From positions 1 to 64,000 of the forward strand of contig JAHYIV010000010.1 in assembly GCA_019429465.1 (NCBI GenBank): a DNA stretch of 64,000 bases, written 5' to 3'. Below are positions 15,964 through 60,293 of this stretch, piece after piece. The stretch comes from Desulfoarculaceae bacterium (lineage in GTDB: Bacteria; Desulfobacterota; Desulfobulbia; Desulfobulbales; Desulfocapsaceae). The notes below the pieces were generated by a model. That model was not told the DNA's origin, searched no databases, and was given only the letters and a program-made list of their open reading frames with translations. The stretch's first letter is position 1. Every line of letters starts with the position of its first letter. Both the position numbers and the translations under genes were made by a program.

Positions 15964-16127
15964 TACTAAGCCGCTGTAAAAAAATAACATGGCCACCTAA
16001 GTGACCGGTGCGGCATAAGGAGCCGGTCGCTCCTACGCCGTCCATGGCGCTCGCGACACTGGGGCCGTCCCTGGCCTGCGTAACGAAATAGATATAAATG
16101 GCCATGTTATTTCGTAACGGCTCCTAA
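15964..16127. repeat. Palindromic ATAACATGGCCA element, filled copy
   Basis: The outer arms read ACTAAGCCGCTG..ATAACATGGCC and GGCCATGTTATTTCGTAACG-GCTCC. It is related to 48743-48869 and 51028-51136, and to a partial copy at 26233-26322. It differs from the first two by an extra 55 bp at 16025-16079. Confidence 0.85.
16025..16079 (+). repeat. 54-bp family short repeat, intergenic copy (insertion in a MITE)
   Basis: Starts GGTCGCTCCTACGCCGTCCA and ends GTCCCTGGCCTGC. It is absent from the equivalent position of the two sister elements, where GGAGCC joins GTAACG or GCAACG directly. Same family as the copies inside murEF, murD, ftsQ, the CCA enzyme and the histidine kinase. Confidence 0.85.
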
Positions 16128-16129
16128 AT

Positions 16130-16210
16130 AACCCCGAGGAACGGGATAAGTGCCTTTCGCAGATTATTTTCTTGCAAAAAAAAAACAAGAAAATAATCTG
16201 TAAGGCACTA
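16130..16210. repeat. Third copy of the Crp-flanking long palindrome
   Basis: Same orientation as 1319-1403: TAACCCCGAGGAACGGGATA, then the 59-bp hairpin with a run of ten A, ending GTAAGGCACTAA. Confidence 0.85.
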
Positions 16211-16287
16211 AAATGCCCCTTACGCTCCCTGGAAGATGAGAACATAAAGGGCATTGTATCCCGCCTCCTCACTGAGGAACTCGGGAC

Positions 16288-20698: not shown

Positions 20699-21430
20699 AT
20701 GCTAATAAAAGACTGGATGGCAACCACTATTCTGACAGTGGACGCCAACACCTCGGTCATGCGGGCCACCCGAACGATGAAAGAGAACAATATCAGACGA
20801 CTGCCAGTCCTGTCCCATGGCAAGCTCGCCGGGATCATCACCGACCGCGACCTGAAAGATGCATCACCTTCCAGCAAGGCTGATATGGACATCCACGAGA
20901 TGTACTACCTGCTCTCCGAGATGAAGGTCAAGGATGTCATGACCGGCAGTCCCGTCTGCCTGAAGAAGGATGACACCCTGGAAAAAGCGGCGCTCGTTAT
21001 GCTGGGAGAGAAGATCTCGGGGCTGCTGATCGTTGACGACAACGACAATCTGGTGGGCCTGCTCTCAGAATCTGATGTCCTCCGGGGCTTCATCCACGCC
21101 ACCGGGATCCAGGACGGCGCCTACCAGTTCGTAATTGACATGTCTGACGCCGGTGGCTCTGTCTCGCTCCTGGTTGACATTCTGCGTCAGCACCATGCTC
21201 GCATCCTCTCCATCCTCACCTCGTTTAACGATGCCCCTCCCGGATTTAAGCGGGTATCGGTACGCATTCTTTCCGGGCTCTCTTCATCCCGCCCTGGAGC
21301 GAGCGACACCGAGCCACCCCTGGCTGATGAACTGGACATTAATGCCATTGCCGGTGAGATCGCGGCGATGGATGGATATAATATCGTCAGCCAGAGTCTG
21401 GATGACCTCAGTAATCTGCCAAAAAAATAA
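20699..21430 (+). CDS. CBS-domain pair protein (AcuB-like)
   Basis: A 243-residue protein with two CBS motifs. The first is MLIKDWMATTILTVDANTSV...IRRLPVLSHGKLAGIITDRDL, the second MKVKDVMTGSPVCLKKDDTL...LLIVDDNDNLVGLLSESDVL. An ACT-like C-terminal region of about 90 residues follows. CBS pairs bind adenine nucleotides and regulate. The start follows CCGGAGGAGGCATTT. Residues about 193-210 (LSSSRPGASDTEPPLADE) come from a short mobile repeat shared with MurE and others (21276-21325). The PFOR gene follows 67 bp later on the same strand. Confidence 0.9.
   Translation: MLIKDWMATTILTVDANTSVMRATRTMKENNIRRLPVLSHGKLAGIITDRDLKDASPSSKADMDIHEMYYLLSEMKVKDVMTGSPVCLKKDDTLEKAALVMLGEKISGLLIVDDNDNLVGLLSESDVLRGFIHATGIQDGAYQFVIDMSDAGGSVSLLVDILRQHHARILSILTSFNDAPPGFKRVSVRILSGLSSSRPGASDTEPPLADELDINAIAGEIAAMDGYNIVSQSLDDLSNLPKK
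21276..21325 (+). repeat. 54-bp family short repeat inside the CBS protein gene
   Basis: Encodes SSSRPGASDTEPPLA, in the same frame and orientation as the MurE repeat SSSIPGASDTGPSMA. It lies in the linker after the second CBS domain and before the C-terminal helix. Confidence 0.75.
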
Positions 21431-24400: not shown

Positions 24401-25034
24401 AGACGGTTGGGCCTATGACATCGGCTACGGCGGTCTTGATCATGTCCTGGCCTCCGGCGAGAATGTGAATATCATGATCCTGGATACCGAGGTCTATTCC
24501 AACACCGGCGGCCAGATGTCTAAATCGACTCCTCGTGCCGCGACCGCCCAGTTCGCGTCCAGCGGCAAGAAGATGCCGAAGAAGGATATCGGCATGATTT
24601 TCTCGACCTATGGCAATGTCTATATTGCCAAGGTGAATATGGGCGCCAATCCCGGCCAGGTTGCCAAGGCCATCGCCGAGGCCGAGGCCTATGATGGTCC
24701 ATCGCTCATCATCGCCTATGCCCACTGCATCAACCATGGCATCAACATGACCAAGGGTCTGGATCAGCAGAAGAAGGCGGTTGATTGCGGTCACTGGCCG
24801 TTGTACCGCTACAACCCTGAGCTGGAGGACGCGGGCAAGAATCCCCTGACCATCGACTCCAAGGAACCCACCATCACCTTTGAGGAATACGCCATGGCTG
24901 AGAACCGCTACCGTATGCTGAAGATGATGAATCCAGCCCATGCCGAGGAGCTCATGGCCCTGTCCCAGAAAGATGTGACCAAATCCTGGAAATTTCTGGT
25001 GGCACGGGCAGCGGCCCTGGAACCAGAGAAATAA
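21498..25034 (+). CDS. nifJ: Pyruvate:ferredoxin (flavodoxin) oxidoreductase, single-chain
   Basis: A 1178-residue homodimeric-type enzyme that oxidises pyruvate to acetyl-CoA and CO2 and reduces ferredoxin; it is central in sulfate reducers and other anaerobes. Domains in order: the pyruvate/PFOR domain I with the AYATTEIITIYPITPSTPMA motif; the gamma domain EPGGAGEPLYLDVRTAV; a 4Fe-4S ferredoxin pair (CIQCGRCSLVCP and CCACTQCVSVCP); a proximal cluster CAGCGETPYI; and a C-terminal thiamine-diphosphate domain with GDGWAYDIGYGGLDHVLA and DTEVYSNTGGQMSKSTP. The start at 21498 is preceded by AAGGAG at nine bases. A strong terminator follows. Nearby CBS protein may regulate it. Confidence 0.97.
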   Translation: MSRKMVTIDGNQACTHVAYATTEIITIYPITPSTPMAAESDTKSAALQENIWNSVPVVTQMQSEAGVAGSLHGSLATGALCTTFTASQGLLLMIPDMYKIAGELTPTVFHVTARSIACQGLSIFGDHSDINAVRQTGWGMLASQNVQECMDMALIVTQAALASRIPFVHFFDGFRTSHEIQKIEELTREDMTAMIDEDLITAHRQRALTPDRPTIRGTAQNPDVYFTGRETVNKYYNALPGIVQDTMDKFATITGRQYNLFDYYGDPDAEDVIVMMASGCETVSATIDYLMAQDKRVGMVIVRLYRPFDCKAMVNALPPTVERITVLDRTKEPGGAGEPLYLDVRTAVGEAIESNIAAYQPLILSGRYGLGSAEFTPTMAKAVFDNMASMAPKNHFCVGPNDDVTGSSLDYDKEFSIEGKDVVRALFYGLGSDGTVGANKNSIKIIGTETDNSAQGYFVYDSKKSGSITTSHLRFGKNPIAAPYLINKANFIACHNSNFLDQYDMLRNLEEGGTFLLTTHFNAKEIWGELPNKVQKALIQKKAKFFIIDAISLGQALGLGARINMIMQTAFFLISGIIPEKEAVAAIKNAIKKTYGKKGDKVVEMNYGAVDAAMKNIVEVKLGKSTGGHAVPPTVPEHAPDFVREVTAIMIEGRGDEVKVSQMPDDGTWPTGTSQYEKRNIGVQVAEWIPENCIQCGRCSLVCPHAAIRMKVATDLKKAPKAFKSADAVGKQFTGRKLVVQVFTEDCCACTQCVSVCPAKTKALQMVANTDAIRKTEAKNVEFFLTLPEVDSTEIDPSTIKGSQLCRPLFEFSGACAGCGETPYIKLVTQMFGDRMLVANATGCSSIYGGNLPTTPYCKRADGRGPAWANSLFEDNAEFGLGMRASVNKLGAQAAELVNQAVTAKLITKKMADGIVGADQKSQTAIEQQRERVAQLKAKLAGSKDVIAKRLLPVADYLVKKSVWIFGGDGWAYDIGYGGLDHVLASGENVNIMILDTEVYSNTGGQMSKSTPRAATAQFASSGKKMPKKDIGMIFSTYGNVYIAKVNMGANPGQVAKAIAEAEAYDGPSLIIAYAHCINHGINMTKGLDQQKKAVDCGHWPLYRYNPELEDAGKNPLTIDSKEPTITFEEYAMAENRYRMLKMMNPAHAEELMALSQKDVTKSWKFLVARAAALEPEK

Positions 25035-25080
25035 TATCTCCATCGAGCCTGCTCTTTTTGAGAGCAGGCATTACTCATAA

Positions 25081-25126
25081 AACAAAAGGGGTTCCGGAAA
25101 GTACTTTCCGGAACCCCTTTTGTTTT
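25081..25126. terminator. Bidirectional intrinsic terminator after PFOR
   Basis: Perfect inverted repeat AACAAAAGGGGTTCCGGAAA+G around TA, with A-rich and T-rich flanks. It separates the convergent nifJ and YkgJ-type genes. Confidence 0.9.
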
Positions 25127-25127
25127 A

Positions 25128-26162: not shown

Positions 26163-26608
26163 ATTATCACCTTGTCAAATATTAATTAAGTACCGTTACC
26201 GAAAGAACGGTTACATTTCCTGGACCATGTACGGCCAGTGTCGCGAGCGCCATGGACGGCGTAGGAGCGACACCGGCTCCTTATGCCGCTCCGGGCACTT
26301 GGATGGCCATGTTATTTTTTTACATTAAAATGGTTCAGAGCCATGAAAACAGTTCTCCTAAAGAGTTTTTTATAGTAAGCATCGCCTCTTTCACTGTCAA
26401 ACCCATTTCATTGCAGTCCGACAATGAAATAAGCAGCCCCGAACAACTACGAAGCAGGGAGATCTGAAATGCGGCCGAGATGCACCTTTTGCTCATAACT
26501 CCTTGCAGTTTACTAAAAAAATCCTTATGGTTGTTACCATAATTATCTGACTTTCTTCAGGTAGACTCAACGAGTCCTTACAAAAACTTAGCAACACAGG
26601 TATATTCC
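26163..26608. other. Intergenic region with a repeat
   Basis: Holds an inverted copy of the ATAACATGGCCA element, truncated at one end, at about 26233-26322. This includes a copy of the short 54-bp repeat (26233-26274). The rest, to 26608, has short open stretches with no supported gene. Confidence 0.6.
26233..26322. repeat. Partial ATAACATGGCCA element containing the short repeat
   Basis: Reverse orientation to 15964-16127. The 5' part GGCCAGTGTCGCGAGCGCCA is the short mobile repeat, followed by GGCTCCTTATGCCGCTCCGG and GGCCATGTTATT. The other arm of the element is missing or decayed. Confidence 0.75.
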
Positions 26609-31424: not shown

Positions 31425-33107
31425 TCAAACCCCGGGCAAAACGATGGTAAAGGTTGTCCCCTCTCCCTCTTTACTCTCAACAGCAATTGTTCCGTGATGC
31501 TGTTCAATAATATTACGACTTATGGCAAGGCCAAGCCCTGTCCCTCTATTTTTATCGGTAAAGAAGGGTCTGAAAATCTGCTCTATCTTTTCGGCAGACA
31601 TCCCCTTGCCGTTATCCCGAATCATAATTGTCACCGCACCCGCCGGTCGCTCCTGCGCCGTCCTTGGCGTCCGCGACACTGGGCCATCCATGGCCTGCGT
31701 CCCTGGTGGCTCGCGCGGAATCAGACCATCCGGGGCCGTCAGCACGGATGGAGCAAAAGCTTCACCAGTGGTGGTCACCTGCAGCACCCCCTGATCCTCC
31801 ATGGCCTGCAGCCCATTTACCAGGATGTTCAGCAGGGCCCGGTAGAACATCTCCTGATCAAGATCGATTGGAGCAAGACCAGGCTTGAGCTCGGCCCGTA
31901 ACTCAATATTTTTTTCTCTGGCGCTGGGTTCAATAAACTCCAAGGCCCGACGGACAACGCTGTTGACATCGACCTTTGACAGTTTTGGTTCCTGGGGTTT
32001 GGCAAAATCAAGAAACTCAACGACGATAGTATTAAGCCGTGCGGTCTCGTCGACAATAATTCTGGCCAACTGTTCATTCCCTGGCGCAATCTTTTTAATC
32101 CTCTTCTCCAGGAGCTCGGCAGTGCTCCTGATGATCCCCAACGGACTTTTGATCTCATGGGACACCGTGGCCACCATGGTGCCCAGATGAGCAAGCCGTT
32201 CGGACTGATTCAACTTCTCTTCCAGTCGAAGCCTTTCAGTAGCCCGAAGCTCCATGATCCTGTCACCACGACTGACGATGGTACGAAGGACCAGAAAGAG
32301 CACCGCCATAATAATGCTGGAAACGAGAATAATCCTTCCCTGTAATTCGATGATGGCACCATACTCCTTGGACAGATCCTGCGTAATCTCTATAACACCC
32401 ATTACCTGCGGACTTGAAGTGGTGCTGCTGCTGACTTGACGAAAGGGGATATAGGTCTTGAGCTGACATTGAACCGAGGGAGATCCGGGCATCAGATTCC
32501 AGATGGAACCACTGAAAACAATCTGGGAATTGGGATTGTTTTTCAAGGCCTTCTGATACTCCACCCCCCCCACATCTTTCTTACCCACCAGTTCCGGACG
32601 GGTCGAATAGGAGATAATATTGATACCGGAATCATAGATGGTGACCGATTCAGTTTTTAACCCCTGAGTCGCATTTTTTACAATGCGATCCAGCATCTGA
32701 AACTGTTCAGGATGACTGAGGGCGATTTTCCCGAAACGGACAACAGTTGGCAGGACAAAACTACGAAAAACCTGCTGATTCAGATTTTCCGCCAGTAACA
32801 GTGAATAATCTTCACTCTGTTCAAGCATGATCTTCCGGGCGTGATTGGAAATAACCCAGGAGAGAATCAGGGTAAAAACGAGGATGGCCCCAAGACTGGT
32901 AAAGGAAAAATATTTAACCAGCTGAAAGGGACGTGTTCCAGCTTGAACATCCTCCTTACGCAAGGGTTTTTCCAATGTCAGCGAGATCATGTTCCCGGGG
33001 GACATATCCTTATCAGCCATGATGAGCCGCCAGACAAGAGCGCTGATGCAAGCCACAATCCGGCGAACCCGGAGTCTCTCCAGTTCGCCAGCCACCGGCA
33101 ACACCAT
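31425..33107 (-). CDS. Membrane histidine kinase, NtrB/ZraS-like
   Basis: A sensor kinase of about 560 residues. The first membrane helix is at about 74-92 (TSLGAILVFTLILSWVIS), then a periplasmic Cache-like domain (YSLLLAENLNQQVF, SYSTRPELVGKKDV), and a second helix at about 270-287. There is no HAMP domain or PAS domain. HisKA has the phospho-histidine in MVATVSHEIKSPLGIIRSTA, and HATPase has N-box LLNILVNGLQAM, G1 MIRDNGKGM and G2 GTGLGLAI. Between N-box and G1 is an inserted stretch (TAPDGLIPREPPGTQAMDGP) derived from two short mobile repeats, in a normally short loop. The TTG/ATG start at 33107 overlaps the radical SAM stop (TGATG); a shorter start at 33020 (MADKDM) is possible. Confidence 0.9.
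   Translation of the reverse strand: MVLPVAGELERLRVRRIVACISALVWRLIMADKDMSPGNMISLTLEKPLRKEDVQAGTRPFQLVKYFSFTSLGAILVFTLILSWVISNHARKIMLEQSEDYSLLLAENLNQQVFRSFVLPTVVRFGKIALSHPEQFQMLDRIVKNATQGLKTESVTIYDSGINIISYSTRPELVGKKDVGGVEYQKALKNNPNSQIVFSGSIWNLMPGSPSVQCQLKTYIPFRQVSSSTTSSPQVMGVIEITQDLSKEYGAIIELQGRIILVSSIIMAVLFLVLRTIVSRGDRIMELRATERLRLEEKLNQSERLAHLGTMVATVSHEIKSPLGIIRSTAELLEKRIKKIAPGNEQLARIIVDETARLNTIVVEFLDFAKPQEPKLSKVDVNSVVRRALEFIEPSAREKNIELRAELKPGLAPIDLDQEMFYRALLNILVNGLQAMEDQGVLQVTTTGEAFAPSVLTAPDGLIPREPPGTQAMDGPVSRTPRTAQERPAGAVTIMIRDNGKGMSAEKIEQIFRPFFTDKNRGTGLGLAISRNIIEQHHGTIAVESKEGEGTTFTIVLPGV
31644..31740 (+). repeat. 54-bp family short repeat, two tandem diverged units in a histidine kinase gene
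   Basis: Unit one is GGTCGCTCCTGCGCCGTCCT...ATGGCCTGC (31644-31698); unit two, more diverged, runs to GGGGCCGTC (31699-31740). The protein reads, on the opposite strand, AMDGPVSRTPRTAQERPAG and TAPDGLIPREPPG. The latter matches TARDGLNPREPG of the CCA enzyme. Confidence 0.8.
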
Positions 33108-41119: not shown

Positions 41120-41140
41120 GATAATTCATCAATTATTTAT

Positions 41141-41321
41141 TGATGGCGTCGTAAAAAGTCGCCAACTGCTTCGTTGCTGCAGGTAAACGAGGCCACGAGA
41201 CTCCGAATTATCTCGTCACTGCGGCGTACTCAAGTACGCCTCATTCCTCGAAATTTGCGCGCCTCGCATTTGACGCTTTTTACTTAGCCATCCCAGAAAT
41301 TGAGTTTTTACGAAACCATCA
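41141..41321. repeat. 181-bp MITE-like element, copy 1
   Basis: Inverted ends TGATGGCGTCGTAAAAA and, as reverse complement, TGATGGTTTCGTAAAAA. Flanked by a 9-bp direct repeat ATTATTTAT (41132-41140 and 41322-41330), as made by transposition. It differs at only two positions from 51535-51715. It falls between murC and murG; the murG stop at 41323 lies just outside, so it may have replaced the original end of murG. Confidence 0.9.
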
Positions 41322-41322
41322 A

Positions 41323-42435
41323 TTATTTATTGCTTCCGTTCATTATTTCCAGACAGCTATCGACGATCCTGTCCGCGGCATCAGGACGACCCAGAGTCCG
41401 CATGGCCACAGCCATCTCCGCCATCCTTCCTCGATCCCCGGCAAGACCGGCCAGGGTTTCAGCCAGTTTCCCAGCCGTCAGTTCCCGCTCCACCAGGACC
41501 ACAGCCCCGCCACTATCGGCATAATAACAACCGTTCCTGTATTGATGATCATCAGCGGCAAAGGGATAAGGGATCAGCACAGCAGGTTTCCCAAGGACTG
41601 CCAGCTCGGCGAGGGTTGTGGCACCTGCCCTTGAAACCAGCAAATCGCATTTCCCATAGACCTCTGCCATGTCGGTAAAAAAAGCGGCCACCGTCGCATG
41701 AACCCCGGCCTGCTCATAGGCCACCTTCACCATCTCCTCATCGGCAGCACCGGTCTGATGGATAACCTCTATTCCAGGTGGCAGCAAGCTCCCATAACGG
41801 GTCAAGGCCTCTATCACCATTTCATTGACCCGGTGCGCACCCAGGCTGCCTCCGAGTACCAGAATCGTCAGCTTTTCATCTCTTTTCTCAGGTGATACCT
41901 TGGCCAGTTCCAGGATCTGGCGACGCACAGGATTACCGGTCAGCACCGTTTTTCCTACCGGAAAAAAGACCTCACTGCCCGGCAGAGAAAGACAAATTCT
42001 GGTGGCCAATTGCCCTAATTTTCTATTGGCCAGCCCCGGCACGGAATTCTGTTCATGAATCAGCGTCGGCCGCCCCAGGATCCTGGCCGCAGCCACCACC
42101 GGTCCGGTCACATAACCGCCAACCCCCACCACCAGATGCGGCCGGAAGCGGATGATATGCCAGAGGGCCTCGACAAAGGAAACAGGAAGGAGAAGAAGGG
42201 CCTGAGCCAGAGCCAACACCCCCTTGCCTTTTAACCCCTGACAATGGATCCCCCTGGTACTGAAACCATAGTGAGCAAGGCTGACCTTATCCATCTTCCG
42301 CCTGGTCCCCACAAAGAGGACCTGGGTCCCGGGAAAACGCCGACAAAAGGCCTCGGCCGTGGCGATGGCCGGAAAGAGATGCCCACCTGTCCCGCCGCCG
42401 GTAAGCAACAGCCGCAGGGGTTGCCTCTTGCCCAT
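41323..42435 (-). CDS. murG: UDP-GlcNAc:MurNAc-pentapeptide-undecaprenol GlcNAc transferase
   Basis: A 370-residue GT-B glycosyltransferase, peripheral on the inner membrane, that makes lipid II from lipid I. The N-terminal motif RLLLTGGGTGGHLFPAIATA is a classic MurG G-loop, followed by GVGGYVTGPVV and LIHEQNSVPGLANR. The donor site has LGGSLGAHRVNEMV, and SRAGATTLAELAVLGKPAVLIPYPFA is the C-terminal signature. The start overlaps the murD stop by TGATG, leaving no room for ftsW. Confidence 0.97.
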   Translation of the reverse strand: MGKRQPLRLLLTGGGTGGHLFPAIATAEAFCRRFPGTQVLFVGTRRKMDKVSLAHYGFSTRGIHCQGLKGKGVLALAQALLLLPVSFVEALWHIIRFRPHLVVGVGGYVTGPVVAAARILGRPTLIHEQNSVPGLANRKLGQLATRICLSLPGSEVFFPVGKTVLTGNPVRRQILELAKVSPEKRDEKLTILVLGGSLGAHRVNEMVIEALTRYGSLLPPGIEVIHQTGAADEEMVKVAYEQAGVHATVAAFFTDMAEVYGKCDLLVSRAGATTLAELAVLGKPAVLIPYPFAADDHQYRNGCYYADSGGAVVLVERELTAGKLAETLAGLAGDRGRMAEMAVAMRTLGRPDAADRIVDSCLEIMNGSNK

Positions 42436-43952
42436 CAGACACTACCACCCTTGCCACCGGCGGCAACGGCAACGGCCAGGGACGCTCTGATCACCTTCTG
42501 CGCGGCAGCGGCAAAGACATTGCCCCGATGACCATAGTTGTCGAACATATCAAAACTGGAGCAGGCTGGCGAGAGCAGGACCGTATCCCCTGCCCGGGCC
42601 AGCTCAGATGCCAGCATGACCGCCTCCTCCATTGACTCTGCCCGGTGCATCTCGGTCATCCCGGCCAGGGCCTGGGCAATCAGCTCCGTGGCCTCACCAA
42701 TCAGGATAAGACAGCGCACCTTTCCAGCCACACTCTCTTTAAGCAGGGTATAATCATCTCCCTTGTCCCGCCCCCCGGCAATAAGAATCACATTGCCGCT
42801 AAAACTGGCAAGGGCGCTGAGAACAGCCCCGGTATTGGTAGCCTTGGAATCATCATAATAGGAGACCCCGTCACCCTCTCCAACCCACGCCATTCGATGC
42901 GGTGCCACCTGAAAAGCGGCCAGACCCTGCACTATCGCCTCCCGGGCACACCCAAGGCTGCGGGCGGCAAGGATGGCCGAGGCGCCGTTCAAGAGACCGG
43001 TGGCATTGTCCAGCATAGACCCCGCCAGGTCATACACCTCTTCTTTGCCCTGCCACGCAAGGACAACACCATATCCATCAATCCGCGCCTGACAGTCCGC
43101 TCCATGTCCAAAAAGACGCCACCGCTGACATCGCTCTGCCACCATCCCAGGCTCCAGCGTCACCGGCCCATCCATGGCCCGCACCCCGAGTTCTGCCGAC
43201 AAGGCTCGACAGAGCTGGTCGTCACCACCGAGGATCGCCGTATCATTCTGCCCCTGGCCGGAAAAGATCTTCATCTTGGCTGCGACATAACCCGCCATGC
43301 TGCCATGGCGATCCAGATGATCCGGGGTCACATTGAGCAGGATCGCCACATCTGCCTTAAAGGCCCCTGCCGCTTCCAGCTGAAAACTTGAAAGTTCAAG
43401 CACCAGCACATCCACATCTTCAGGATTACTCAGATAATCAAAGAGCGAAGTGCCGATATTGCCGCCGACAAAGACCTTTTTCCCGGCCTGCTGCAGCAAC
43501 TTGCCGATCAGGGCGGTCACCGTGGTCTTGCCATTGGTGCCCGTGATCGCCACTACTGGTTTAGACAGCAGCGGCGCCGCCATGGCCAATTCACCCAGCA
43601 CCGGGATGCCGAGGGCGCGAAGCTCCTGCAGGATCTCCAGATCCTGGCTGATTCCGGGGCTGACCAGGACCTGATCGGCTCGCCTGAGAAATGCCAGGGT
43701 ATGGCCCCCGCATTCATACTCTACTCCCTGCTCTGCCAGAAAGTCCAGATCTGCGACGGCCAGGGACGGCCTGAGGCCATGGGAGCCAGGGCTGGCGGAA
43801 GCAGCCGCCGGCAGGTGCGGACTGTCCCTGGTATCAGAAACCAGCACTCTCATTCCCTGCGACAGCAGATAACGCACAGCCGCCCGACCGGAGACCCCCA
43901 GTCCCATCACTGCCACGCAGCCATCAGCTGTTATTTTATTATGAGCTCTCAT
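42435..43952 (-). CDS. murD: UDP-N-acetylmuramoyl-L-alanine--D-glutamate ligase
   Basis: A 505-residue Mur ligase, longer than the usual about 440-460. It starts VMGLGVSGRAAVRYLL, with P-loop VVAITGTNGKTTVTALIGKL, then LNVTPDHLDRHGSM, YYDDSKATNTGAV and LIAGGRDKG; LLSPACSSFDMFDNYGHRG is typical. Two stretches come from the short mobile repeat: SPGSHGLRPSLAVAD in the N-terminal domain and AMDGPVTLEPGM in the middle. Both lie in loops. Adds D-glutamate to UDP-MurNAc-L-Ala. Confidence 0.95.
   Translation of the reverse strand: MRAHNKITADGCVAVMGLGVSGRAAVRYLLSQGMRVLVSDTRDSPHLPAAASASPGSHGLRPSLAVADLDFLAEQGVEYECGGHTLAFLRRADQVLVSPGISQDLEILQELRALGIPVLGELAMAAPLLSKPVVAITGTNGKTTVTALIGKLLQQAGKKVFVGGNIGTSLFDYLSNPEDVDVLVLELSSFQLEAAGAFKADVAILLNVTPDHLDRHGSMAGYVAAKMKIFSGQGQNDTAILGGDDQLCRALSAELGVRAMDGPVTLEPGMVAERCQRWRLFGHGADCQARIDGYGVVLAWQGKEEVYDLAGSMLDNATGLLNGASAILAARSLGCAREAIVQGLAAFQVAPHRMAWVGEGDGVSYYDDSKATNTGAVLSALASFSGNVILIAGGRDKGDDYTLLKESVAGKVRCLILIGEATELIAQALAGMTEMHRAESMEEAVMLASELARAGDTVLLSPACSSFDMFDNYGHRGNVFAAAAQKVIRASLAVAVAAGGKGGSV
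43133..43182 (+). repeat. 54-bp family short repeat inside murD (central site)
   Basis: CTGCCACCATCCCAGGCTCC...GGCCCATCCATGGCCCGC. Translated on the minus strand it gives AMDGPVTLEPGMVAER, like AMDGPVSRTPRTAQER of the histidine kinase. Confidence 0.7.
43755..43803 (-). repeat. 54-bp family short repeat inside murD (N-terminal site)
   Basis: Reads ASASPGSHGLRPSLAVAD on the coding strand. The nucleotide pattern CCTGGCTCCCATGG...AGGCCGTCCCTGGCCGTC is nearly that of the CCA-enzyme copies. Confidence 0.8.
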
Positions 43953-45309: not shown

Positions 45310-48300
45310 TTACTCAGCCAAACTTTCTAACTGTTCGACCACAACCTCAAGACGCATCCCCCTTGAACCTTTGACCAGCAGCCAGTCGCCAGCCTGCAAC
45401 TGACTACCGGCCAGGAGGTCTTCGATCCAATCCACAACACCCTTCTTTTCCAAGAAGATTTTGATCCGCCGGCTATCCATACCGGCCATCCTCGCCCCGG
45501 CGGCCGTCTCAGCTGCAAAACTCCCGACCAGGGCCAGATAGTCAATTCCCTGACCCGCCGCAAACCTTCCCACTTCCCGGTGGGCCTCGGCGCTGCCTGG
45601 GCCCATCTCCAGCATATCTCCCAGAATGGCCACCCGCCTGCCCATTTGCTGCTGGCGAAGGGTCTGCAAGGCTGCCTGCATTGAGGCCGGATTGGCGTTA
45701 TAAGTATCGTTTAAAATAGACACCCCACCCTTCCCCTTGACAATCTGCATCCGCTTGTCAGCAGACCTGAAGGCGCCAAGGCCGGCACCGATCTGACGTA
45801 ATCCAAGACCTGCGGCATGAGCAATAGCAGCTGCGGCCACTGCATCGAAGATATTATGAACGCCCGGGACGTGCAGGGTAACACCAATTGTCTCCCCTGC
45901 GAGATGAAGGACAAAACTCTGAGTGGAAGTCCCCTCACTCGAAATGTCAGAGGCCCAGACTCGTGGCTGTTGCGACAGACTCAGGCCCTCTTCACTTGCG
46001 GCATAAAAAACCTTTTTCTGCTGATACTTCTCAGCGCAGGCCCGCACGCGGGCATCATCCAGATTAACAACCAGAGTAGTGGTCTCGCCGCACCCGGCAA
46101 ACAGCTCCTCCTTGGCCCTCGCAACCCCTTCTATGGAATGCAGCCCCTCCAGATGCACGGCATGGACATTGATAATGCAGGCGATATCAGGTTCAGCAAT
46201 ATCAGTTAATCTGGCAATCTCACCTGGTCGGTTCATACCCATCTCCAGGATAACAGCCTTGTGGCCTGGATCAATGGGGAGCAGAGAGAGGGGCAGGCCT
46301 ATAAGATTATTGAAATTCCCTCTGGTCTTCAGCACCCGCTCTGGAGGCGCCTGGACATCCATCTCCCGGGCCCGCCAATGATGTTCAAAGATTGCCGCCG
46401 TCATCTCCTTGACCGTGGTCTTGCCACAGCTGCCGGTAATGGCCACCACCAGCGGTCGATTGACCGCCTTCATCACCTGCCGCCGATATGCAGCCAGGTC
46501 GCCCAGGGCCTGCAGCGTATTCTCCACCAGCAGACAGGAAATAACGGGAAGGCTCTCTCGGGGTGTTTCCTGACGAACCACAAGACAGCCTGCTCCAGCG
46601 GCCGCTACCTGGTGCAGAAAGTCATGACCGTCAAACCTCTCTCCTTCAAGGGCCACAAAGATGTCGCCCTCTGCCACTTGCCGGCTGTCGGTCACCACTT
46701 TTCCAAGGTCTGCTCGGCCCTGAAGGTCCCCGACCAGCTCACCTCCAACCGCCAGTCCGACACTGTCAAGTCTCCAACTCGTCAATGCTTTTTGGACCTC
46801 AAGAGTATCATCAAAAAAACGTTTGCCATCCTGCCCGTGCTGATACAGTTCATGACCTTTGCCGGCGATGAGCACGACATCCTCCGCTGTTGCCGCCCCA
46901 ATGGCCAAGGCAATGGCGGCGGCCCGGCTATGTAGAACAAGAAAACCCTTATTGTCACCTGCCGAGGCCGTGAGCCAGGAAGATGACCGCTTTGGCATAC
47001 CGCTCAACCGGGCTCCGGAGACGATCTGGGCCACTATCTCCCGGGGCGATTCACTGCGGGGATTATCATCGGTGATGAGCACCACATCGCAGCACTGACC
47101 GGCAATCTCACCCATAAGGGCCCGTTTTCCTTTGTCCCGGTCACCACCACAGCCAAAGACACAGATCAATCTCCGATGCGGAAGACGGGAGAGGGTCGCC
47201 AGCACCTTTTCCAGGGCATCCGGGGTATGGGCATAATCGACAAAAACCGCAGGCCGGAAGTGCGCTTCCTGTCCTGCCGGCCTCACCCGCTGCAGACGAC
47301 CAGGGGCACCGGGCGCATGAGCAATCCCGGAGGATAACACCTCCGCCTCAACTCCCAGGGCCAGTCCAATCCCTATTACGGTCTGCAGATTTTCGACATT
47401 AAAGTCACCCACCAGGGGGGAGGTGAACTGAACTTCTTTCCCCGGCAGATGCAGGGTCATGGTGGTGGAATCGAGAGACGAATCGATGTTCAAAGGATAG
47501 ATGTCGCTCTGGTCGGCCCGGCCACACTGCCACACCTTAACGCCCTGCGATGCACACAGCTCAACCAGCAGCCGGGCCCTGTTCTCTTCTTCGGGATCAT
47601 GATCTTCCCTGCGGCAGATAACACCCCTGCCGCCCATCTTCAGATGCTCACGAAAGAGGAGGGCCTTGGCCGCGAAATAGTCATCCATATCCTGATGATA
47701 ATCCAGATGGTCACGGGAGAGGTTAGTAAAGGCAGCAACATCAAATTGCAGATCACCAAGGCGGCGCTGGCTCAGGGCATGGGAGGAGACCTCCATGATC
47801 ACATGGGTCACGCCCGCATCTGCCATCTGCCTGAGGAGTCTCTGCAGCAGGAGCGGCTCCGGTGTCGTGAAAGGGGCCGGGAACTCTTCATCCTGCCCCT
47901 TGGCATCACGGTAACGATAATTAACCGTACCGATCACCCCGACCGCCAAGCCCTGCAGCCTCAAGACACTGTCAAGGAGATAGCTGACCGTGGTCTTACC
48001 GTTGGTGCCGGTAACGCCAATCAGGGTCAACCCCTGGGCTGGACTCCCATACAGATTAGCCGCAATCTGCGCATAGGCCAGATGGCTGTCTTCAACCACA
48101 ATCACACTCTGGGCACAATGGACAAACTGTTCCGGTCTCACCCTGCCTCTCTCCACCACAATTGCCGTGCAGGCGCAGGCCATGGATGGCCCAGTGTCGC
48201 TCGCTCCAGGGATGGATGAAGAGCAACCGCAGGCCATGGATGGCCCAGTGTCGCTCGCTCCAGGGATGGATGAAGAGCGACCGCAGGCCATCACCTGCTC

Positions 48301-48519
48301 CAGATAGGAATGACCATCGACCCTTGTCCCGGCCAGGGCCACAAACAGAGACCCAGCCGTCACCTTCCGGGAATCAACCGTCACCCCGGAGATCTTCATA
48401 CCGGGGGATAGACTTTTACCAAGAACCGAATACTCCACAGAATCAAGGAGTTCCTGAAGAGAATATTCTCTACTGACCTCCTCTTCAGAAACATGCATTG
48501 CCGGTCTTGTATTATTCAT
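45310..48519 (-). CDS. murE-murF: Bifunctional MurE-MurF fusion
   Basis: A 1069-residue protein. Residues about 1-560 are MurE (adds meso-diaminopimelate): P-loop LIGVTGTNGKTTVSYLLDSV, TNLSRDHLDYHQ, and the DAP-specific DDNPRSESPREIV. Residues about 600-1069 are MurF (adds D-Ala-D-Ala): VVAITGSCGKTTVKEMTAAI, LEMGMNRPGEIARLTDI, LNDTYNANPASMQAAL, and ILGDMLEMG. Such fusions are seen in a few lineages. MurE carries a 36-residue insertion near residue 85-120, two tandem 18-residue units (SSSIPGASDTGPSMACG) encoded by a mobile repeat, before CACTAIVVERG. All catalytic motifs remain. Confidence 0.96.
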   Translation of the reverse strand: MNNTRPAMHVSEEEVSREYSLQELLDSVEYSVLGKSLSPGMKISGVTVDSRKVTAGSLFVALAGTRVDGHSYLEQVMACGRSSSIPGASDTGPSMACGCSSSIPGASDTGPSMACACTAIVVERGRVRPEQFVHCAQSVIVVEDSHLAYAQIAANLYGSPAQGLTLIGVTGTNGKTTVSYLLDSVLRLQGLAVGVIGTVNYRYRDAKGQDEEFPAPFTTPEPLLLQRLLRQMADAGVTHVIMEVSSHALSQRRLGDLQFDVAAFTNLSRDHLDYHQDMDDYFAAKALLFREHLKMGGRGVICRREDHDPEEENRARLLVELCASQGVKVWQCGRADQSDIYPLNIDSSLDSTTMTLHLPGKEVQFTSPLVGDFNVENLQTVIGIGLALGVEAEVLSSGIAHAPGAPGRLQRVRPAGQEAHFRPAVFVDYAHTPDALEKVLATLSRLPHRRLICVFGCGGDRDKGKRALMGEIAGQCCDVVLITDDNPRSESPREIVAQIVSGARLSGMPKRSSSWLTASAGDNKGFLVLHSRAAAIALAIGAATAEDVVLIAGKGHELYQHGQDGKRFFDDTLEVQKALTSWRLDSVGLAVGGELVGDLQGRADLGKVVTDSRQVAEGDIFVALEGERFDGHDFLHQVAAAGAGCLVVRQETPRESLPVISCLLVENTLQALGDLAAYRRQVMKAVNRPLVVAITGSCGKTTVKEMTAAIFEHHWRAREMDVQAPPERVLKTRGNFNNLIGLPLSLLPIDPGHKAVILEMGMNRPGEIARLTDIAEPDIACIINVHAVHLEGLHSIEGVARAKEELFAGCGETTTLVVNLDDARVRACAEKYQQKKVFYAASEEGLSLSQQPRVWASDISSEGTSTQSFVLHLAGETIGVTLHVPGVHNIFDAVAAAAIAHAAGLGLRQIGAGLGAFRSADKRMQIVKGKGGVSILNDTYNANPASMQAALQTLRQQQMGRRVAILGDMLEMGPGSAEAHREVGRFAAGQGIDYLALVGSFAAETAAGARMAGMDSRRIKIFLEKKGVVDWIEDLLAGSQLQAGDWLLVKGSRGMRLEVVVEQLESLAE
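48175..48282 (-). repeat. Two tandem 54-bp units of the short repeat inside murE
   Basis: Units 48175-48228 and 48229-48282 are identical apart from two bases (AAGAGCAACC versus AAGAGCGACC). They encode 18 residues each, in frame. The unit starts GCAGGCCATGGATGGCCCAG on the plus strand. Not a CRISPR: no spacers. Confidence 0.95.
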
Positions 48520-48874
48520 AATAGAGAATGGTGGAGAGATAAAAATTGAAAGTTAAAGATCGAGCAAGAGTCTTAAAAACTGTACCGCTGCCATCTCGAT
48601 CAAGGAGCAACGGTCGTGGCAGGAATATCAAGAGAATCAATAGAGTGAGAGAGGGCCTTACCTCGCCTGCAATACCCAGAAAGGTCTGCTGGGGCCAGAG
48701 GAACAGGAGAAGAGGACACTTTTAATCAGTCCCAAAGTGATTCACTAAGCCGCTGTAAAAAAATAACATGGCTATCTTAGTGCCCGGAGCGGCATAAGCG
48801 GCATAAGCGGCATAAGGAGCCGTAACGAAATAGATATAAATGGCCATGTTATTTCGTAACGGCTCCTAAGCCTT
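48520..48874. other. Intergenic gap in the dcw cluster containing a repeat
   Basis: 355 bp without a gene between ftsI and murEF. It holds the palindromic element at 48743-48869; the remainder has no recognised feature. Confidence 0.6.
48743..48869. repeat. Palindromic ATAACATGGCCA element, empty copy with triplicated 9-mer
   Basis: Same ends as 15964-16127 but without the 55-bp insert. GGAGCC joins GTAACG directly. It also has GCGGCATAA three times in tandem (about 48800-48827). It lies just after the ftsI stop. Confidence 0.85.
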
Positions 48875-51027: not shown

Positions 51028-51136
51028 ACTAAGCCGCTGTCAAAAAAATAACATGGCCACCTGAGTGCCCGGAGCGGCATAAGGAGCCGCAACGAAATAG
51101 ATATAAATGGCCATGTTATTTCGTAACGGCTCCTAA
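51028..51136. repeat. Palindromic ATAACATGGCCA element, empty copy
   Basis: Same ends as 15964-16127, without the 55-bp insert (GGAGCCG joins CAACG). It overlaps the last residues of the ftsL reading frame. Confidence 0.85.
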
Positions 51137-51501: not shown

Positions 51502-51534
51502 AGTGCGCTCCTCTGTTAAATTGTCAATAAATCT

Positions 51535-51715
51535 TGATGGCGTCGTAAAAAGTCGTCAACTGCTTCGTTGCTGCAGGTAAGCGAGGCCACGAGACTCCGA
51601 ATTATCTCGTCACTGCGGCGTACTCAAGTACGCCTCATTCCTCGAAATTTGCGCGCCTCGCATTTGACGCTTTTTACTTAGCCATCCCAGAAATTGAGTT
51701 TTTACGAAACCATCA
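51535..51715. repeat. 181-bp MITE-like element, copy 2
   Basis: Same 181 bp and inverted ends as 41141-41321 with two differences. It sits between rsmH and ftsL. Target duplication is not as clean as for copy 1 (only ATCT shared). Confidence 0.88.
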
Positions 51716-51737
51716 ATCTTCGATCAGACTCAGACGG

Positions 51738-58634: not shown

Positions 58635-60293
58635 CTAGGTCTCACCGCCCCCATCTTTCTCCTCTCGCTCCAGATAGTGCCTCACCCATCTTTGCGCATC
58701 CTGCCTGCAGGATACCTCACCTTCGACCTGCGCCACCTCAAGGGCGTCGAGAATCTTTGCAAAGAGAGGACCTGGCTGCAAAGAGAAGATGGTAATAAGA
58801 TCCTGGCCACTCAATAGACGCGGTCCTTTCAGGGCAGGCTTAATATACTGTTCATAGATCTGCAGCACCTCCTCAAGCAGCCCGGCCAGTTCAGCCTCCA
58901 TGGCCGGCGGTTTGTTCTCTCCCTTACCCGCCAAGCTGTCGGACATGGCCACGAGAAACAGACCCAGCAGATCATTTCCCGCCTTCCGGCAGAGGTTCAG
59001 ACAGGCCTTGCGGCTCAGCGGCTGTTTTCGCCGCACATTGCAGAGATGAAAGGGCTGCATATGCATCCCGACGAGCGCCGCAATCCCCTCCCGCTTTTCA
59101 TTACTCCACTTCAGCTCCCGGCCCAGCTGCAATACCAGCTCCTTGCCGGCCTGATCATGACCATAAAAGGTGATCCGGTCATCCTGGCCATCCTTGGCTC
59201 TCGCGCCATCAGACTGTCGCTGACCGTCCCGAACGACCATGGTCACGGGCTTGCCCAGGTCATGAAGCAGGGCCGCCCACTTCAACCGCGCCTTCATCCC
59301 CGACTGGCCGATATACTCTTTCATCCTTACCGCGCACTCTGGATAAAACCGCTCTGGTGCCGCCAGTATCTCCTCCATACAGCCGAGGGCCGTCAGGCTG
59401 TGATCAAAGACATCCAGATGGTGGGAACCCGGCTGCTCCATACCAACGCCCCGGACAAGCTCCGGGATGAGCTGTCGGAGCAGTCCGGTCTGTGCCATCT
59501 CCCCCATAAACACATGGGCACGACCTGAGGCCATCATCAGATCCAGTTCATGGCTGATCCGCTCAACTGAAACCTGGCGAATCAACCCTGCATGCTGACG
59601 AATCTCCGCTTTCGTTGCCTCCTCCAGGCTGAAACCCAGAGTGGCGCTCAACCGGTAGCCACGCAGCATACGCAGCGGATCGGCAAGAAAGGCATGGGGG
59701 CAGGCACGCAGGATCTTCTTTTCCAGATCAGGATAACCGAGCAGAGGATCGATCAAGGGCGGAGCCGCTGATCGATCCACCAGTGAGGCAAGGGAGATGC
59801 CCATGGCATTGACCGTATAATCCCGGAGGCTCAGATCCGCTTCAATGGTTCTCGCCCCCAGGCGAAAACTGGAAAAATCAATAGTCACCGCTCCCGCCAT
59901 CCCTGGCTCCCGCGGATTTAGGCCGTCCCTGGCCGTCACCGCTCCCGCTATCCCTGGCTCCCACGGATTCAGGCCGTCCCTGGCCGTCAGCCCCTGCCAT
60001 GCCACCCGCCCGGCATCCTCCTCGGCACGACCAAGGGGGACAAAAGTCCCGCCACCCAGTTCAGCAATCAAGGACCGGCAGCAGGCCACGGCGTCATAGG
60101 CCACTGTGATATCCAGATCGCCTGGCGTCCGGCCCAGCAGCCAGTCACGGACGGTGCCGCCAATAACAAAAAATTCCAGCCCACGTGCCTCTGCCACCCG
60201 TAAAAGGGCAGTAATCAGCCGCGGTGGATAGCTCTCCAGCCTCTCAGACAACAATGCCGGATCAAGGAGTTTATTGCTTCTTTCTTCTTTCAT
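58635..60293 (-). CDS. CCA tRNA nucleotidyltransferase/poly(A) polymerase-family protein with HD domain
   Basis: A 552-residue class II nucleotidyltransferase. Seen: FFVIGGTVRDWLLGRTPGDL with the catalytic DLDI after it, RDYTVNAMGISL, and LRMLRGYRLSATLGFSLEEA, as in CCA-adding enzymes; then a C-terminal HD domain with LHDLGKPVTM. The HD block and length fit the type that adds CCA or tails RNA. Two tandem 17-residue units (ARDGLNPREPGMAGAVT) lie between WQGL and TIDFSSF of the nucleotidyltransferase fold, and a third site (RDGQRQSDGARAKDGQ) in the HD domain; all come from the short mobile repeat. The ATG at 60293 is the first with conserved sequence after it. Confidence 0.9.
   Translation of the reverse strand: MKEERSNKLLDPALLSERLESYPPRLITALLRVAEARGLEFFVIGGTVRDWLLGRTPGDLDITVAYDAVACCRSLIAELGGGTFVPLGRAEEDAGRVAWQGLTARDGLNPWEPGIAGAVTARDGLNPREPGMAGAVTIDFSSFRLGARTIEADLSLRDYTVNAMGISLASLVDRSAAPPLIDPLLGYPDLEKKILRACPHAFLADPLRMLRGYRLSATLGFSLEEATKAEIRQHAGLIRQVSVERISHELDLMMASGRAHVFMGEMAQTGLLRQLIPELVRGVGMEQPGSHHLDVFDHSLTALGCMEEILAAPERFYPECAVRMKEYIGQSGMKARLKWAALLHDLGKPVTMVVRDGQRQSDGARAKDGQDDRITFYGHDQAGKELVLQLGRELKWSNEKREGIAALVGMHMQPFHLCNVRRKQPLSRKACLNLCRKAGNDLLGLFLVAMSDSLAGKGENKPPAMEAELAGLLEEVLQIYEQYIKPALKGPRLLSGQDLITIFSLQPGPLFAKILDALEVAQVEGEVSCRQDAQRWVRHYLEREEKDGGGET
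59176..59227 (+). repeat. 54-bp family short repeat in the HD domain of the CCA-enzyme gene
   Basis: CCGGTCATCCTGGCCATCCT...GTCGCTGACCGTC. More diverged than the tandem pair at 59886-59987 but with the same pattern. Encodes RDGQRQSDGARAKDGQDD. Confidence 0.6.
59886..59987 (+). repeat. Two tandem 51-bp units of the short repeat in the CCA-enzyme gene
   Basis: Units 59886-59936 and 59937-59987 differ at four positions. Start CACCGCTCCCGCCATCCCTG, end AGGCCGTCCCTGGCCGT. Encode TARDGLNPWEPGIAGAV and TARDGLNPREPGMAGAV in frame. Confidence 0.93.

Follow-up and report, generated by a model that had tools for sequence, protein, structure and literature searches.

Did a short repeat enter a larger one at a single exact point, and if so, how many times did it do so and where else has it settled? 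The movement of very small bacterial repeats is an old open question, since their ends and targets can rarely be defined. We addressed it in a 64,000-nucleotide stretch of a Desulfoarculaceae bacterium genome (contig JAHYIV010000010.1, positions 1 to 64,000; hereafter, the window), in which a palindromic element occurs with and without a short extra block. The host is a sulfur-cycling bacterium represented by a 2.84-Mb draft genome in 72 contigs, and the MraY protein encoded in the window is 91–92% identical to that of three Desulfocapsa-like Desulfobulbales genomes.

The palindromic element (TAAGCCGCTGTAAAAAAATAACATGGCCA...TGGCCATGTTATTTCGTAACGGCTCCTAA) measures 106 bp when empty. Its filled copy in the window (TAAGCC...CTCCTAA, 15967–16127, plus strand) spans 161 bp with TA at both ends: GGAGCC at 16019–16024 is followed by 55 extra base pairs at 16025–16079 (plus strand), which form two hairpins with RTCCMT tips, and then by GTAACG at 16080–16085. 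In two empty sister copies on the same strand (48746–48869 and 51030–51136), GGAGCC abuts GTAACG or GCAACG directly, the joints beginning at 48816 (GGAGCCGTAACG) and 51083 (GGAGCCGCAACG). These joint coordinates bear out the initial annotation, which had described two empty copies and a filled one with 55 bp exactly at the joint. The interval it proposed, 16021–16084, contains the insert along with a few flanking bases, and its 55-bp length is correct for this copy, which carries one G more than the 54 bp usual in the family. All three copies it named are real, but the window holds a fourth, degenerate and likewise unit-bearing (26222–26324, minus strand), consisting of a left half, a GGAGCC joint (26275–26280, minus strand), a degraded unit after it and a diverged right half. 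A 9-bp GCGGCATAA run is present in triplicate in the copy at 48746–48869; it occurs one to three times in filled and empty copies alike (also L022, L023, L040, L046, L058 and L059). At the place of the filled window copy itself, the element was absent from the orthologous site in nine of nine relatives, as read by eye.

We then took the comparison to the whole genome. The 67-bp filled junction had at least 42 matches, of which 33 spanned the full 67 bases; the scoring covered 40 of 80 candidates. A right-half element pattern hit 85 sites, whereas the pattern in reverse hit none; the filled junction is therefore not due to chance. Parsing of the 85 copies yielded 43 filled and 29 empty ones that could be compared, and 13 were set aside: eight without a recognisable left end, three with a second MITE inside (L263, L266 and L212), L052, which holds three units in tandem inside one element, and L049, where the left joint is followed by unrelated DNA at the right joint. 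Point changes aside, the joints of filled copies read GGAGCC^GGTCGCTC...GGCCTGC^GTAACG. Gathering and aligning the copies was the check that the initial annotation had called for, with the proviso that graded intermediate lengths would suggest deletion rather than insertion. No such gradation emerged: the ends are alike in nearly every copy, and only four of the 43 inserts have fewer than 54 columns (28, 28, 49 and 53). Since both joints are intact in all four, these are internal deletions, and gradual erosion of the insert, which we considered as a candidate, is ruled out. Insert lengths vary because a discrete block, gained or lost exactly at fixed joints, has been shortened internally or has grown in tandem, and not through gradual loss.

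The element itself has several hallmarks of a MITE, with terminal inverted repeats (arms 15964–15995 and 16099–16130, 75% complementary), no coding capacity and many dispersed copies (85). Its ends read TAAGCC/GGCTCCTAA, and TA stands on either side of most copies; the element-free orthologous sites were too distant to be aligned with these ends. Other repeats were observed in its surroundings. The second MITE (GTGCCTTACAG...AAGGCACT) lies at 1321–1403 and at 16129–16211, the latter adjoining the filled copy, and where it is nested in first-element copies it has TA on both sides in L263 and L266. A 184-bp repeat (99% identical, 41140–41323 and 51534–51717, starting with GATGGCGTCGTAAAAAGTCG and ending with TTTTTACGAAACCATC) looks like a third MITE, and a perfect 25-bp inverted repeat without spacer (25078–25127) follows an open reading frame that ends at 25034. 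The leuS-lptE-like intergenic space, assigned from reading frames, carries different MITE types in different species (L421, L423, L428 and others) and is an apparent hot spot.

What is the inserted block? At 54 bp, it has the length of one period of an independent repeat, which occurs elsewhere both singly and in tandem, and a related 51-bp class exists beside the 54-bp one. With a loose context rule separating units in the element from units outside it, this genome contains 41 distinct units inside and 53 distinct units outside, the latter mostly in open reading frames, and the fetched relatives contribute 19 and 29, respectively. The core pattern of the unit matched 100 sites, 55 on one strand and 45 on the other, against 0 and 1 for a control pattern. 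In the window, further units lie antisense in a histidine-kinase gene (31645–31697, plus strand) and, in diverged form and sense orientation, in a CBS-domain gene (21275–21326, plus strand). A poly(A) polymerase/CCA-transferase-like gene contains two tandem units of the 51-bp class, likewise antisense (59884–59985, plus strand).

The units fold as two hairpins tipped with RTCCMT. Among 123 distinct units (138 of 142 retained by similarity and then made unique), 89.5% of cells were paired, compared with 84.7% (maximum 86.1%) in 500 shuffles, and 80 cells had compensatory changes on both sides, compared with at most 42 in the shuffles. Versions of the fold slid along the unit paired in just 25–40% of cells, although 80 two-sided cells were likewise reached with the +3 slide (37% of cells paired), which counts against the fold test. 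Rfam, searched over the whole window at gathering score, matched a tRNA alone. In the single register that we chose for the alignment, the units read YG^GTCGC...CTGCG^, with CG in the element and murE and TG in murG. The earlier proposal that insertion leaves no target duplication could not be upheld: CG stands at both unit ends, within tandem arrays just as within the element, which makes a 2-bp duplication look the same as none, and the joints would fit zero or up to 2 bp duplicated.

How many insertions do the 43 filled copies represent? Throughout the 106 outer columns, the consensus of the filled copies matches that of the empty ones, and in none of these columns are the frequencies of the two classes more than 0.2 apart. 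Nearest neighbours are not sorted by class (0.48 vs 0.51 ± 0.05 in shuffled data, p 0.71). The outer copies lie 3–4% from one consensus, so that tree and neighbour tests are low-powered in this genome, and the neighbour and consensus comparison does not strictly exclude many insertions into identical young copies. Divergence is 2.7% for the inserts and 3.3% for their own outer parts (p 0.29); insert and host element are about the same age. The element inserts of this genome are 94.5% alike, compared with 75.4% for its units outside the element, and TACG occupies unit columns 10–13 in 36 of 41 inserts versus none of 53 outside units. Because the inserts are clonal and the outer consensus is identical to that of the empty class, the filled copies here are best read as one insertion multiplied together with the element. 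The initial view that the short unit inserts precisely stands in so far as the block is discrete, has constant ends and is one repeat period long, but the filled copies of this genome probably do not record many insertions.

Beyond this genome, the element was present in 29 of 58 sampled genomes: the 17 of the genus without exception, and 12 others. Among the matches listed, both filled joints occurred only within the genus, and the contiguous empty joint was also found outside it (for example, in G029, G035, G038, G042, G048 and G051). This distribution argues against the view that the filled form is ancestral and gave rise to empty copies by losing the unit exactly. Unit numbers at fixed murE and murG codons vary among close species, which fits loss as well as gain, and the short class of Correia elements has been called an internal deletion. 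Yet the flanking repeat of 0–2 bp is too short for frequent exact deletion, and the shortened inserts described above retain both joints; we regard such loss as highly improbable.

A second element type, with another left hairpin, was found in 17 of 17 genus genomes and was mostly empty among the matches listed. In eight relatives (G001, G004, G006, G009, G010, G012, G015 and G016), units are found at the homologous joint not just in types 1 and 2 but in further types as well, and the subtypes at this joint include A (CTGCRCC...GGYGC) and B (CTTCATCC...GGAGCGAGC). G009 alone holds four to five combinations of type and subtype, with A and B, which are paired stem changes apart, both in the type 2 element (L170 and L301). 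A tree of 111 units, in which 15 of the 41 inserts of the window's genome were sampled, required 13 context changes, and the units of L299, L170 and L172 are nearest to units outside elements. Placing all element-borne units in one clade lowered the lnL by 61.7 and was rejected with an AU p of 0.018, a moderate value on 54 columns and for an element-borne group set by the loose context rule. Because other subtypes sit at the same spot and a single clade is rejected, the sequences make re-insertion at a fixed site across the genus likely; gene conversion among units is a possible process that could mimic it.

The competing reading invokes a single insertion in the common ancestor of the genus's element types, with filled and empty lines inherited ever since and the subtypes generated by divergence and gene conversion. 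It would explain why the joint is alike in all element types and why the inserts of this genome are clonal, and the two stable size classes that PMC2649163 gives for Correia elements of Neisseria offer a precedent. It is also in keeping with the L173 locus, where a filled element is common to four species (G016, G012, G006 and G002), the other genomes having none or another element. The rejection of a single clade, the presence of A and B in one element type of G009 and the units nearest to outside units all speak against it, and we consider it unlikely. The L173 locus suggests that filling can be stable, and it bears on stability rather than turnover; at the two loci checked, we found no element that one species has in filled form and another, at the orthologous position, in empty form. 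Repeated filling, the reading we prefer for the genus, may extend to the window's own genome. There, L289 is a different element type carrying a B-type unit, and L273 and L280 are unit arrays with a variant left joint (AACGGC^unit), which counts against our overall account; on account of these loci, this genome probably saw more than one insertion event.

Units also reside inside genes. In the window, two of them lie in frame in the murE part of a MurE-MurF fusion (48229–48282 and 48175–48228, minus strand). The fusion is one 1069-aa open reading frame (45310–48519), and many relatives appear to share this arrangement, judging from tblastn matches of similar length. A 51-bp block of the related class in murD (43755–43805, minus strand) is absent from 13 of 13 other genus genomes parsed, and a diverged unit antisense in murD (43131–43180, plus strand) is absent from eight of eight relatives aligned. 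Across 14 genomes, murG has 0, 1 or 2 unit copies in 9, 3 and 2 genomes, always at one codon; murE has 0, 1, 2 or 3 copies in 10, 2, 1 and 1 of 14 genomes (G005 was not parsed and is left out), again at one codon, the double being that of the window. Gene-borne blocks are normally 18 or 17 codons long (54 or 51 bp), with exact gain or loss in murE, murG and murD; the exceptions are a unit lacking three codons in the murG array of L394 and a degenerate single murE unit in L366. A plasmid collection searched with the murE array gave no match.

Units read open in several frames. Outside the element, 46 of the 53 units of this genome fall within stretches that stay open for 200 aa or more; since this resembles random 54-mers of the same loci (84%), the units do not avoid genes. 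Within the element, the corresponding count is 5 of 41. We modelled the first 400 residues of the window MurE from 15 sequences, obtaining a mean pLDDT of 84, with 262 of the 400 residues at 90 or above. The unit-coded residues 81–114 fell below 50, as did residues 1–15, and the model predicts the unit stretch to be a floppy loop, with a helix on one side and a strand on the other.

These arrays raise the alternative of a plain minisatellite, shaped by slippage and unequal exchange alone, with the unit in the element being a chance capture. Tandem arrays of two to three units in genes and in one element (L052) are what it would lead one to expect, but single units with the same ends are found at many unrelated places on both strands (55 + 45 sites), and slippage cannot explain how murE, murG or the element acquired its first copy. 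We therefore judge it very unlikely.

Does such a unit belong to a known class? Like the RPEs of Rickettsia, it is a palindromic repeat found in frame in unrelated genes, here murE, murG and murD. RPEs are described in PMC10969869 as about 150 bp long and tolerated by the proteins that contain them; compared by description, the present units differ in their size of 54 or 51 bp, in forming tandem arrays and in being nested at a fixed point of a MITE. The filled and empty element resembles the Correia/nemis repeats of Neisseria, being a TA-ended palindrome in two size classes. The longer Correia core carries an IHF site. Correia elements target TA and form two classes some 50 bp apart, 153–157 and 104–108 bp, according to PMC2649163; as far as descriptions from a different bacterial class can be compared, the extra 54 bp here differ in being a dispersed family also present in genes.

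In its manner of insertion, the unit also resembles SDR5 of cyanobacteria, a very small repeat that enters another repeat, HIP1, precisely between its nucleotides 3 and 4 (cited in PMC4390886). SDRs measure some 20 bp (PMC2884548). A very small repeat with exact joints inside a larger one is also what we observe, in 43 filled against 29 empty copies and in relatives, but SDRs are shorter and SDR5 targets HIP1, whereas the present unit targets the base of a hairpin in a MITE as well as gene codons. Longer ERICs with internal insertions exist. ERIC and YPAL are MITE-like palindromes, some of them in genes, and the YPAL (RU-2) sequence printed in PMC2759123 has tips resembling CAAGGATG and CATGGATG; they differ in sequence and hosts, and that source shows no fixed 54-bp nested unit. 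By these comparisons, the unit resembles SDR5, RPE and Correia elements, and we have not filed it as a formal member of any of them. We found no literature on such units in Desulfobulbales, in a search that left most subscription journals outside its scope, so novelty is unproven.

REP/REPIN repeats with RAYT offer another likeness, being short hairpin repeats, and Y1 transposases were found in all 17 genus genomes. In contrast to REP/REPIN, the units are mostly in open reading frames and not intergenic, and the 20 Y1 loci fetched held no unit and no element of these types, with one other MITE near one locus; in eight of the 20, a script found no hairpins with a tetranucleotide foot. A Y1/RAYT transposase, which we considered as the mover, thus finds no support at these 20 loci, though it may act in trans.

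Our overall account, which we consider probable, runs as follows. The TA-bounded, MITE-like element exists in an empty form of 106 bp and in a filled form 54 bp longer, the extra DNA being one unit of an independent 51/54-bp two-hairpin repeat family. In what appears to have been a single event, one unit would have slotted into one element between GGAGCC and GTAACG, and this filled form would then have multiplied alongside the empty one in this genome. In other genomes of the genus, other units have probably filled this spot more than once, in several element types, as the mixing of subtypes and the rejected clade suggest. Units also enter genes as exact multiples of three bases and grow to tandem arrays. 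The unit most likely moves as a hairpin in single-stranded DNA that is joined to the foot of a second hairpin, at CG/YG or close to it, with 0–2 bp duplicated; the driver could be a trans-acting enzyme or template switching at the replication fork. A bolder version would count the 52–54-bp unit among the smallest mobile elements known, self-contained and site-specific: moved in trans, it would re-enter one hairpin-foot position in several MITE types, enter fixed codons of cell-wall genes, always in exact multiples of three, and use MITE amplification as its vehicle. This version we put forward only tentatively, as possible but doubtful.

For the question of how such small repeats move, dozens of natural filled and empty copies, at one MITE position, one murE codon and one murG codon, fix the ends of the unit and its target within 2 bp, and the 17 genomes of one genus permit comparison. 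Mur enzymes are essential in most bacteria. That they can carry 18-residue blocks in varying number bears on the origin of new protein loops.
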